From NCBI GenBank assembly GCA_015068645.1, contig SVKD01000005.1:1-64000 (forward strand): 64,000 nucleotides of DNA. Direction: 5' to 3'. This stretch comes from Oscillospiraceae bacterium (lineage in GTDB: Bacteria > Bacillota > Clostridia > UMGS1840). Shown here piece after piece: positions 6,281-9,602 of the stretch (positions are counted from its first letter, which is position 1; every line of letters starts with the position of its first letter). The position numbers were made by a program, and so were the translations under genes. The notes below the pieces were generated by a model, which was not told the DNA's origin, did not search any database, and was given only the letters and a program-made list of their open reading frames with translations.

Positions 6281-6916
6281 TTAAGGCAAGATTTTTATCA
6301 CACGGACTATATCCTTCACCAACGGTTCAAAAGCACAAAAGTCCTCAGGAGTACCCACCAAAGTACCGTAATGGGTAGGAATTACCACTTTAGGTTTCAT
6401 CTGATTCACCCACTCCGCCGACTCTTTGGGATTCATCGTGTAGGTCCCGCCAATGGGAATCATCGCAATATCACAGGAAATTTCTTCCGGCATTGCATCA
6501 CAATCACCTGAAACATAGATTTTAGCACCATCGATGGTTATGATATAACCAAGCCATCCGTTTTCTTTGGGATGCATTGGTTTATCCACGTTATAAGACG
6601 GCACTGCCTTCACTAAAACACCCTGAACAGAAGTTTCATCGCCTGCTTCCATAAAAACGGCGTTTTCTTTGGTAAACCCATATTCTCCTACTTCACGTTC
6701 CATTGACTTCGGCATCACAAATACCGTTTTATCGCAACTGATTTTTTTGATATCTTCCGGAGAAAAATGGTCATAGTGGGCGTGTGTTATAAACACAATA
6801 TCAGCGTCATTAGTTTCTTTTTGAATTCGAAACGGGTCAAAATACAACACCGGTTCTCCCTCAATACGGATACTGCTGTGTTCATTGATGCTGATTTTTT
6901 CTATCATTTTATTCAT
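6281..6916 (-). CDS. Metallo-beta-lactamase-fold hydrolase (UlaG-like)
   Basis: A 211-residue MBL-fold protein with the zinc signature THAHYDH (residues about 45-51), VSGDCD as the bridging-Asp motif, and PTHYGT as the late His motif. This short architecture is typical of the broad UlaG-like/Zn-dependent hydrolase group, whose substrates are mostly unknown. It starts two bases after the GTPase-NYN gene stops, with GAGGA inside the end of that gene, so the pair should be translationally coupled. Any functional link to that translation factor is inference. Confidence 0.85.
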   Translation of the reverse strand: MNKMIEKISINEHSSIRIEGEPVLYFDPFRIQKETNDADIVFITHAHYDHFSPEDIKKISCDKTVFVMPKSMEREVGEYGFTKENAVFMEAGDETSVQGVLVKAVPSYNVDKPMHPKENGWLGYIITIDGAKIYVSGDCDAMPEEISCDIAMIPIGGTYTMNPKESAEWVNQMKPKVVIPTHYGTLVGTPEDFCAFEPLVKDIVRVIKILP

Positions 6917-6918
6917 TT

Positions 6919-9501
6919 TTAGATTCCTCGTTCTTTCGTTTCTTCTAAAATACCGCGAATAGCGTCCTCGGTCGTTTTTACCTCTTCTAAAAAAGCATCA
7001 GCAGAAATTCTTAATGCTCCGTGACCGATAATAATCAGTTGCTCTAAATTATCAGAAGTAGCTACACGAACTTTATGATGTTTTCCAAGCTGCTTGGTCG
7101 CTTTTTCAATATACATATCGGCAGTTTCTGCTTCTTTGGTATATACGACACTGATATTGTGAATTTTTTCCACTTCTCCGGGGTTGTTTTTTACCTTGTA
7201 AGCATCAAACACCACAATCAGTTCGCATTGGGTAAACCCCTGATAATTGCATAAACGGTCAATCAGGTGTTCTCTTGCCACTTCCAGACTTTCTGAGGCA
7301 ATTTTCTTTAAATCGTCCCAAGCAAAAATAATGTTGTAACCGTCCACCAATAGGTATTCAGGTCCCTTGGGTGCCTGTTTTACAGGTTTATATTTTGGGG
7401 TGGGATCCAAAGGGCGTTTTGCCGGATTTTTCGCTTCATATTCCCGACGGCGAATGGGTCCGTAAGTTTTTTCAAACACTGCTAAGAGTTCGTCATCGCC
7501 ATATACCCGTTCCAAATACCGTCTGGCGCGTTTTTCGGTAGGTATTTCTCCCCCATCATCTTCATCAGAAATTTTAGCACCATCCAAATGCATATAATCA
7601 CGAACCTGATTCCATTTAACATAAAATCCTGCTCCATGAGAACAAAACACAGAATCAGGCGTATTTTCGGTGTCATTTTCAGGATTATATCCTATTTCTT
7701 CGATAATAAATTCAGCATCTTTACATGGCTCGTACCCTTTCAGGTGACAAACCAACCGACCTGCGCCGTGGGTATAACGAATCACTTCGGTGTGATAATC
7801 TCGCATTTTAGAAACAGGTGCACTTCCCTTGAGAACTGCCTTTTCTTCCAAAAATCCTGTCTGCTGACAGTTACCGCCCATATAAGAAATATCGGTCATC
7901 GCTTTTCCGACTGAATCTGAGGGCAATTCCAGTTCAAATTCGTACCAAGGCTCTAACAAAATACTTTCCGCACACATGAGTCCCTGACGAACCGCCCGAT
8001 ATGTTGCCTGACGGAAATCGCCGCCCTCAGTATGCTTCTTGTGAGCACGTCCTGTAATCAAGGATATTTTCATATCGGTAATGGGTGAACCCGTGAGAAC
8101 ACCCAAGTGTGTTTTTTCATATAAATGCGTTAAAATCAACCGTTGCCAGTTTTTATCCAATTCATCTTCACTGCAGGAGGTGACAAACTGTAAACCGCTT
8201 CCACGGGGCAACGGTTCCAACAAAAGATGCACTTCCGCATAGTGACGAAGAGGTTCGTAATGCCCAACTCCCTCCACAGCGGATGCAATCGTTTCTTTAT
8301 AGGTAATACTGCCTTGTCCAAAAGTTACATGCAATCCGAAACGTTCTGCAATGACACCTTTTAAAACCTCTAACTGCACTTCACCCATCAGCTGAATTTG
8401 AATTTCACGAAGACGCTGATTCCAAAAAATGTGAAGTTGGGGATCTTCCTGCTCTAATACCCGTAATTTTGCCAATGCGGATGCCACATCTGTTCCGTCC
8501 GGCAACTCTATACGGTAGCTTAATACCGGTTCCGTCCACATAGGAATACTGTTTCTCTCAAAACCAATACCATCCCCCACACGAAAGTTATCCAATCCTG
8601 TTACTGCACAGATTGTACCCGGAAAAACTTCGTCAACAGTCTGGAATTTCTGCCCTGAATAAATACGTATCTGATTGATTTTTTCATCAATTTTTTCGTG
8701 ATTGGCATCTGTTGTTTGTAAAATGGATTTTACTTTCAAACTTCCGCCGGTGATTTTCATATGAGTTAAGCGGTTTCCCTGCTCGTCCTCAGATATTTTA
8801 TACACTTTTGCCCCGAATTTTTTAGAAAAGACAGATTCCTCTGTTAAGGTAAGAACACCTTTGATAAATTCATCAATGCCTTCCATTTTTAAGGCAGACC
8901 CGTAAAACACAGGAAACCATTTTCGGTTTTTGATTGCTCGTTTTAAGCTTTCTTCCGATATAGTATCAGTTTCTAAATATTCTTCCAGCAAGGATTCGTC
9001 CGAACAGGAAATACTTTCTAAGTCTAAATCCTTACTATAATCAATCAAAGACGGATGGAGCCGTTCTTTTAAATTTTGAGACAATTTATCTCGGTCGGCA
9101 CCGTCTAAATCCATTTTATTGACAAACACAAAAGTGGGAATATGATAACGTTCCAACAGTTTCCACAAGGTTTCGGTATGGCTTTGTACTCCATCGGTTC
9201 CACTGACTACTAAAATGGCATAGTCCAGCACACTCATTGTACGTTCGGTTTCGGTAGAAAAATCAATGTGACCGGGTGTATCCAAAAGAGTGATAATGGT
9301 ATCTGAAAATTCCAAAATAGCTTGTTTGGAGAAAATCGTAATGCCTCGATCACGTTCCATAGAATGAGTGTCCAAAAATGTATCTTTATGATCAACACGT
9401 CCTAATTTTCGGATGGCACCGGAACAATACAAAAGGCTCTCGGAAAGTGTTGTTTTCCCAGAGTCAACATGTGCCAATATTCCAAAAACCAAACGTCTCA
9501 T
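6919..9501 (-). CDS. TetM-like ribosomal-protection GTPase fused to YacP/Rae1-type NYN nuclease domain
   Basis: About 860 residues. The N-terminal ~640 form an EF-G-like translational GTPase of the TetM/TetO type: G1 AHVDSGKTT, G2 within RGITI, G3 DTPGH, G4 NKMD, then the GQGSITYKET and LTDMKISL-type domain IV/V features. After a Pro/Lys-rich linker (NPAKRPLDPTPKYKPVKQAP) come about 145 residues matching the YacP-like NYN ribonuclease domain: LLVDGYNIIFAW, LIDRLCNYQG, VVFDAYKV, KEAETADMYIE and RVATSDNLEQ, so its acidic catalytic residues are all present. Rae1 (YacP) of B. subtilis cleaves mRNA in the ribosomal A site, where TetM-type factors also act. Chosen start aligns with the TetM N-terminus; the Shine-Dalgarno (AAAGGA) is slightly distant. 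Resistance to tetracycline should not be assumed. Confidence 0.9.
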   Translation of the reverse strand: MRRLVFGILAHVDSGKTTLSESLLYCSGAIRKLGRVDHKDTFLDTHSMERDRGITIFSKQAILEFSDTIITLLDTPGHIDFSTETERTMSVLDYAILVVSGTDGVQSHTETLWKLLERYHIPTFVFVNKMDLDGADRDKLSQNLKERLHPSLIDYSKDLDLESISCSDESLLEEYLETDTISEESLKRAIKNRKWFPVFYGSALKMEGIDEFIKGVLTLTEESVFSKKFGAKVYKISEDEQGNRLTHMKITGGSLKVKSILQTTDANHEKIDEKINQIRIYSGQKFQTVDEVFPGTICAVTGLDNFRVGDGIGFERNSIPMWTEPVLSYRIELPDGTDVASALAKLRVLEQEDPQLHIFWNQRLREIQIQLMGEVQLEVLKGVIAERFGLHVTFGQGSITYKETIASAVEGVGHYEPLRHYAEVHLLLEPLPRGSGLQFVTSCSEDELDKNWQRLILTHLYEKTHLGVLTGSPITDMKISLITGRAHKKHTEGGDFRQATYRAVRQGLMCAESILLEPWYEFELELPSDSVGKAMTDISYMGGNCQQTGFLEEKAVLKGSAPVSKMRDYHTEVIRYTHGAGRLVCHLKGYEPCKDAEFIIEEIGYNPENDTENTPDSVFCSHGAGFYVKWNQVRDYMHLDGAKISDEDDGGEIPTEKRARRYLERVYGDDELLAVFEKTYGPIRRREYEAKNPAKRPLDPTPKYKPVKQAPKGPEYLLVDGYNIIFAWDDLKKIASESLEVAREHLIDRLCNYQGFTQCELIVVFDAYKVKNNPGEVEKIHNISVVYTKEAETADMYIEKATKQLGKHHKVRVATSDNLEQLIIIGHGALRISADAFLEEVKTTEDAIRGILEETKERGI

Positions 9502-9570
9502 TGGATTTTTTAATCCTTTCATTATAATATTTTATATTATAATAAAAAAATTTCGTTCTGTCAATAAAAA

Positions 9571-9602
9571 AGGAGATGTAAAAATCAGGTTTTACATCTC
9601 CT
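9571..9602 (-). terminator. Intrinsic terminator after glnA
   Basis: Long stem AGGAGATGTAAAA paired with a near-perfect complement, followed by a T-run on the minus strand, 11 bases past the glnA stop. Confidence 0.85.

Follow-up and report, generated by a model that had tools for sequence, protein, structure and literature searches.

The window analysed here, 64,000 nt of contig SVKD01000005.1 from an Oscillospiraceae bacterium, encodes on its minus strand a translational GTPase fused to an endoribonuclease domain in one uninterrupted ORF. The ORF can be read from 9522 down to 6919 (867 aa) or, from its second ATG, from 9501 (860 aa). Since most homologues of the fused protein align from residue 8, which is the second ATG, an AAAGGA ribosome-binding site lies just 5′ of it at 9519-9514, and predicted transcription begins just some 7 nt from the upstream in-frame ATG, the ATG at 9501 is preferred as the likely start, in agreement with the coordinate given in the initial annotation. 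The features of the locus are collected in Table 1; residue numbers follow the 867-aa form.

Table 1. Features of the fused gene and of the region upstream of it.
Feature	Position in window	Strand	Basis
Whole fused ORF	6919..9501	-	Homologue starts; AAAGGA at 9519-9514; in-frame ATG at 9522
G domain (GTP_EFTU), residues 11-226 of 867, with G1-G4 and catalytic His85 of DTPGH	8845..9492	-	Pfam, E 3.2e-50
EF-G domain II	8569..8817	-	PF22042, E 2.5e-9
EF-G domain III	8317..8532	-	PF14492, E 6.6e-8
EF-G domain IV	7969..8310	-	PF03764, E 8e-19
Domain IV tip loop GHYEPLRH, residues 420-427	8242..8265	-	Signature of the family, not present in Tet or EF-G
Domain IV tip loop HKKHTEGGDF, residues 494-503	8014..8043	-	Replaces YYSPVSTPADF of TetM/TetO
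EF-G domain V	7717..7959	-	PF00679, E 1.6e-16
C-terminal extension PDSVFCSHGAGF.V.W..V..YMH, predicted folded hairpin and helix	7588..7716	-	Alignment and model
Linker, mostly predicted disordered	7357..7587	-	Model and homologue comparison
Conserved linker helix motif DDELLAVFEKTYG	7459..7497	-	Not found outside fused proteins in the genomes searched
NYN_YacP (Rae1) endoribonuclease domain, residues 724-864	6928..7353	-	Pfam, E 1e-50; PDB 5MQ8/5MQ9 (Rae1), E 3e-28
Sigma-70-type consensus promoter TTGACA-17-TATAAT, 12/12 matches	9536..9564	-	Sequence match
Terminator-like hairpin after the upstream glutamine synthetase gene	9571..9602	-	Sequence

The initial annotation described a fusion with complete G motifs and NYN acidic residues, and proposed a Pfam search for GTP_EFTU together with NYN_YacP. 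That search found both in the one ORF, in the order GTP_EFTU, EF-G_D2, EFG_III, EFG_IV, EFG_C and NYN_YacP; for NYN_YacP the score was 171.9 bits, with a Pfam cut-off of 24.6. The motifs G1 (AHVDSGKTT), G2 (RGITI), G3 (DTPGH) and G4 (NKMD) are intact, and with G1-G4, the catalytic His and domains II-V all present the fused protein belongs to the translational GTPases of the EF-G (EF2) family. Residue conservation was counted over 121 full-length fused proteins: D20, G22, K23, H85 and D138 of the GTPase are kept in 119 to 121 of them, and D727, N730, D773, D802, E806 and D824 of the NYN domain are invariant (121/121), which bears out the description. The best PDB sequence matches of the GTPase half were TetO/TetM (3J9Y, 3J25, 4V6V; E 1e-75 to 2e-71), and the NYN half matched the solved B. 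subtilis Rae1 (Table 1). In an AlphaFold2 model built with 75 sequences (mean pLDDT 87), the GTPase and NYN parts are well folded and the linker between them is largely unordered; by fold, the model resembles structures of EF-G and TetM on the ribosome. An artefact of assembly or reading frame was rejected, since about 100 of 291 Clostridia genomes, and loci of named genomes, have the same architecture within a single ORF. A separate NYN protein made from an internal start was likewise rejected, ribosome-binding sites preceding the NYN region in 7.4% of cases against a background of 8.9%.

Between the GTPase and the NYN domain lie two further elements. The C-terminal extension, with the sequence DSVFCSHGAGF, is common to fused and NYN-less members and absent from Tet and EF-G; its residues S624, F626, C627, G630 and W637 are present in 121/121 fused sequences. 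The linker ranges from 50 to 134 residues across homologues and contains a helix with the consensus (D/E)xEL..IFE+TYG in fused proteins; the stretch past the helix has a net positive charge in 95% of those scored. A search of ten genomes for the linker motif as a docking peptide shared with other proteins gave no convincing second copy.

Upstream lies a glutamine synthetase gene, from which a terminator-like hairpin would insulate the fusion; the predicted promoter comes directly after this hairpin. Expression of tet(M) is governed by attenuation; the leader predicted here, about 28 nt from transcription start to gene start, would be too short to leave room for a tet(M)-type attenuator, and no Rfam leader or attenuator element was matched before the fused gene. 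Downstream, a metallo-beta-lactamase-fold hydrolase gene (6281-6916, minus strand) begins within 3 nt of the fusion stop codon and, because of this spacing, is probably co-transcribed with the fusion in the window; a homologue lies within 300 bp of the fusion in only four of 121 loci. Neither conserved neighbour genes nor recurrent mobile-element genes were found around the 121 loci. Guilt by association was rejected as a guide to function, the commonest neighbour, a MATE-type transporter, being present in 12/121 loci with mixed orientation and distance.

Replacement of stand-alone Rae1 by the fusion

The distribution of the NYN domain was followed in a sample of 291 Clostridia genomes. NYN_YacP scored above the cut-off in 188 of these and was lacking altogether in about 103. 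The fusion was present in 105 genomes (in one piece in 102, split across contigs or frames in three) and a stand-alone NYN protein of about 160-220 aa in 83; no genome (0/291) had both, where about 30 would be expected under independence by an arithmetic that ignores phylogeny. In four families (f22, f23, f27 and f28) both states were found, always one or the other per genome. The domain is single-copy per genome, and the genome of the window has only the fused form. Apparent second copies in three genomes (G136, G201 and G241) were rejected as sub-threshold matches of 49 residues, and a match in G247 was also sub-threshold. Only a dozen of 200 further genomes, most of which belong to other classes of the phylum, carried the fusion.

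Stand-alone NYN genes have a fixed place: 23 of 24 loci were at rlmB/sigH, with 23 beside sigH and 19 beside rlmB. None of 120 fused loci adjoined rlmB/sigH, three weak rlmB-like matches among them looking like paralogues. In four fused genomes (G025, G136, G155 and G222) rlmB and sigH are neighbours and the NYN slot between them is empty; G059, a genome congeneric with G025 and G136, lacks the fusion and has a stand-alone gene in that slot. In the genome of the window, rlmB lies on another contig, with neither NYN nor sigH found beside it. The absence of the fusion from rlmB/sigH and the empty slot in the four fused genomes show that the fusion replaces stand-alone Rae1.

The one stand-alone NYN outside the slot (genome G242, locus L025) grouped within the fused NYN clade (support 82), which suggests fission of a fusion in that genome; a separate GTPase-only gene is also present there (L182). 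GTPase-only genes were found in 16 genomes altogether, and since six of these lack any NYN, the GTPase has a use of its own apart from it. Co-occurrence of a GTPase-only gene with a separate NYN gene was weak (10/83 genomes, against 6 of the approximately 103 without NYN).

Two side observations concern copy number and source. One genome of 61% completeness (G133) has two diverged fused copies (L072 and L073), representing a real paralogue or contamination. Full-length fusions were also met in a phage collection, in records H41 (MT835563.1, UNVERIFIED) and H42 (MT835514.1), both labelled Bacteriophage sp. Both are unannotated stool scaffolds, and they do not count as evidence of phage carriage; they are most likely bacterial scaffolds from stool metagenomes.

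The GTPase subfamily and its domain IV tip

The initial annotation called the GTPase TetM-type, a label that holds at the superfamily level but not beyond it: identity to Tet proteins is 29-32%, and the protein falls outside the Tet clade. In a maximum-likelihood tree of the GTPases, a quick one with long branches and a tentative deep order, fused and GTPase-only proteins formed one clade (SH-aLRT 99) outside both the Tet clade (100) and EF-G. The fused proteins clustered together within it (support 99), with one NYN-less member from Ligilactobacillus salivarius nested inside; given this nesting, the L. salivarius protein may have lost its NYN. One origin of the fusion is compatible with the GTPase tree and with the NYN tree (NYN p-AU 0.46, not rejected).

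The domain IV tip displaces tetracycline in Tet proteins (PMC4342817). In essentially all members of the clade found here the tip reads GH[YF]EPLRH and HxKHTxGGDF, the corresponding sequences being VPPNPFW and YYSPVSTPADF in TetM/TetO and HEVDSSEMAF in EF-G. In the first loop H421, E423, P424 and H427 were present in 121/121 fused sequences, and H421 and H427 also in 20/20 GTPase-only sequences; in the second, H497, G501, D502 and F503 were present in 121/121 fused sequences. Against the NCBIfam tet_protect model the window protein scored 440 bits, with a cut-off of 775, and against the TetM/W model 300, with a cut-off of 1100. As judged from sequence, therefore, the GTPase is a subfamily of its own, distinct from TetM. 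Four conserved His residues (421, 427, 494 and 497) cluster in the tip, where they might bind a metal or contact RNA at the decoding centre.

NCBI names several relatives TetM/TetW/TetO/TetS family resistance proteins, as the initial annotation had anticipated. Two members so labelled that have no drug-displacing loops are a protein of Agathobacter rectalis (L081:4974-7775) and the GTPase-only protein on plasmid pMP118 of L. salivarius UCC118 (L082:4992-6926); for both the resistance label is likely a misannotation, which could inflate resistance counts. On this L. salivarius megaplasmid the GTPase-only gene adjoins rpsN, encoding S14 (L082:4535-6926).

Proposed function and competing explanations

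EF-G and Tet-type folds occupy the same ribosomal site, with domain IV at the decoding centre. Rae1 of B. subtilis, the nearest studied relative of the NYN half, cleaves mRNA in a translation-dependent manner (PMC6613710). The reading we favour, with a probability of about 0.55, is that the fused protein is a housekeeping chromosomal factor of Clostridia that took over the job of Rae1/YacP, an A-site GTPase delivering a tethered mRNA endonuclease to stalled ribosomes. A conserved fusion of a GTPase with Rae1 in which both active sites are intact makes it plausible that one protein reaches the A site and cuts mRNA there, and the replacement of the stand-alone gene supports a Rae1-like job. The zero co-occurrence, the empty slot, the consensus promoter and the lack of mobile neighbours also speak for a housekeeping role of this kind, as do the fold match of the model to EF-G and TetM on the ribosome and the agreement of both trees with one fusion origin. 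Against it speak the GTPase-only relatives in genomes lacking NYN, the roughly 103 genomes without the domain, and the weak association of a GTPase-only gene with a separate NYN gene.

We infer how the protein would bind ribosomes, what it would cut, what would trigger it and how cleavage would be coupled to GTP hydrolysis, as follows. On a paused ribosome the EF-G-like half would bind the factor site, so that domain IV, whose conserved tip is particular to the family, comes to lie in or close to the A site; a change of conformation, and release, would follow from the hydrolysis of GTP. A long, flexible and often basic linker would keep the NYN half on the same ribosome, where it would cut the mRNA in the A site, or that of the next ribosome, so that decay and rescue could start. 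Because the GTPase and the NYN domain would compete for the same A-site space, they would act in turn on one ribosome, or on neighbouring ribosomes. A bolder version of this proposal, which we put forward only tentatively, is that a distinct class of GTPase uses a decoding-centre probe of its own (GH[YF]EPLRH/HxKHTxGGDF) to sense A sites that are stalled or empty, and passes the mRNA on to the tethered endonuclease, as a one-protein no-go-decay factor that would be the standard stalled-ribosome pathway of many Clostridia.

Three other explanations were weighed. The least improbable, though still unlikely, is that the halves work independently, the GTPase being a mere ribosome anchor or a separate rescue or recycling factor, and are fused only for ratio or location. 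The GTPase-only relatives in six genomes without any NYN are in keeping with this, as are the 73 of 83 genomes in which a separate Rae1 has no GTPase partner, the NYN-less L. salivarius member inside the fused clade, and a linker that is long, variable and disordered; yet the fusion has been kept across many families of the class, and the linker helix, conserved in fused proteins and not found elsewhere in the genomes searched, hints at a specific contact. More doubtful is a quality-control or growth-arrest device whose target on the ribosome is rRNA or tRNA and not mRNA. The four conserved tip histidines would face the decoding centre, and processing of rRNA and tRNA was earlier predicted for NYN domains (Anantharaman and Aravind, as cited in PMC4342817); against this, the nearest studied relative cuts mRNA, the promoter looks constitutive, and the loci showed no toxin-antitoxin layout or antitoxin partner.

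Least probable of all, and very much so, is a ribosomal protection protein against tetracycline or another A-site drug to which the RNase was added as a new resistance mechanism, the idea of Atkinson 2015. The domain order is that of TetM/TetO, many relatives bear the NCBI names noted above, and matches to tet_protect models exist below the cut-off. That cut-off is missed widely, however, the drug-displacing loop YYSPVSTPADF is replaced by HxKHTEGGDF, the clade is separate from Tet, the gene is single-copy, widespread and free of mobile context, and the predicted leader would be too short for attenuation; in G035 and G026, moreover, a Tet-like gene (644 aa) is present as well. Tetracycline resistance by the fused protein is thus unsupported by these sequence features. 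The initial annotation had proposed one protein that clears stalled or drug-bound ribosomes and cleaves the mRNA; the conserved fusion, intact sites and Rae1 replacement leave the cutting of mRNA at the A site plausible, and it is the drug-bound part that finds no support in the features just listed.

If the favoured reading, that of an A-site GTPase delivering a Rae1-type endonuclease, is true, a single GTPase-RNase protein, not known to have been studied, carries out ribosome-linked decay of mRNA in a large share of Clostridia (36% of the sample), and the fusion offers a direct handle on the recruitment of Rae1 to the A site. Many 'tetracycline resistance' genes of gut bacteria would then probably be core translation factors that should not be counted as resistance.

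Relation to known systems

The fusion itself is not new. In Atkinson 2015, Tet proteins of ten Clostridiales were reported to have gained an RNase domain of the YacP-like NYN type, and a mechanism of resistance based on this RNase was suggested (PMC4342817). The initial annotation knew of no experimental study of the fusion, and a full-text literature search, which may miss subscription papers, found neither later work nor experiments; the architecture was nevertheless already in print. New here are the 105/83/0 distribution, the replacement of Rae1, the separate GTPase subfamily with its own tip, and the features of promoter, leader and linker. With the same architecture and host group, the Tet-YacP NYN fusions of 2015 are almost certainly the same family, an identification made without comparing that paper's sequence list. 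There they are treated as Tet proteins, whereas here they form a separate subfamily that is far more widespread and replaces stand-alone Rae1.

B. subtilis Rae1/YacP is like the NYN domain of the window in core alignment, acidic residues and its one copy per genome, but is a stand-alone protein of about 170 aa in the rlmB-rae1-sigH slot, whereas the window domain is part of a GTPase fusion encoded at an unrelated locus. EF-G and EF-G2 share the fold and the GTPase motifs and are set apart by a long branch in the tree and by the tip loop HEVDSSEMAF, which in the fused protein is HxKHTxGGDF. With TetM/TetO the window protein shares the five-domain EF-G-like GTPase fold; it differs in its tip loops and C-terminal extension, its extra NYN domain, its non-mobile setting and the lack of an attenuator-sized leader. 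The GTPase-only members, named 'translation factor GTPase family protein' (L. salivarius UCC118, Subdoligranulum, Paenibacillus; 42-51% identity), share the domain IV tip, slightly altered, and the FCSHGAGF extension, but end at about residue 645, without linker or NYN.
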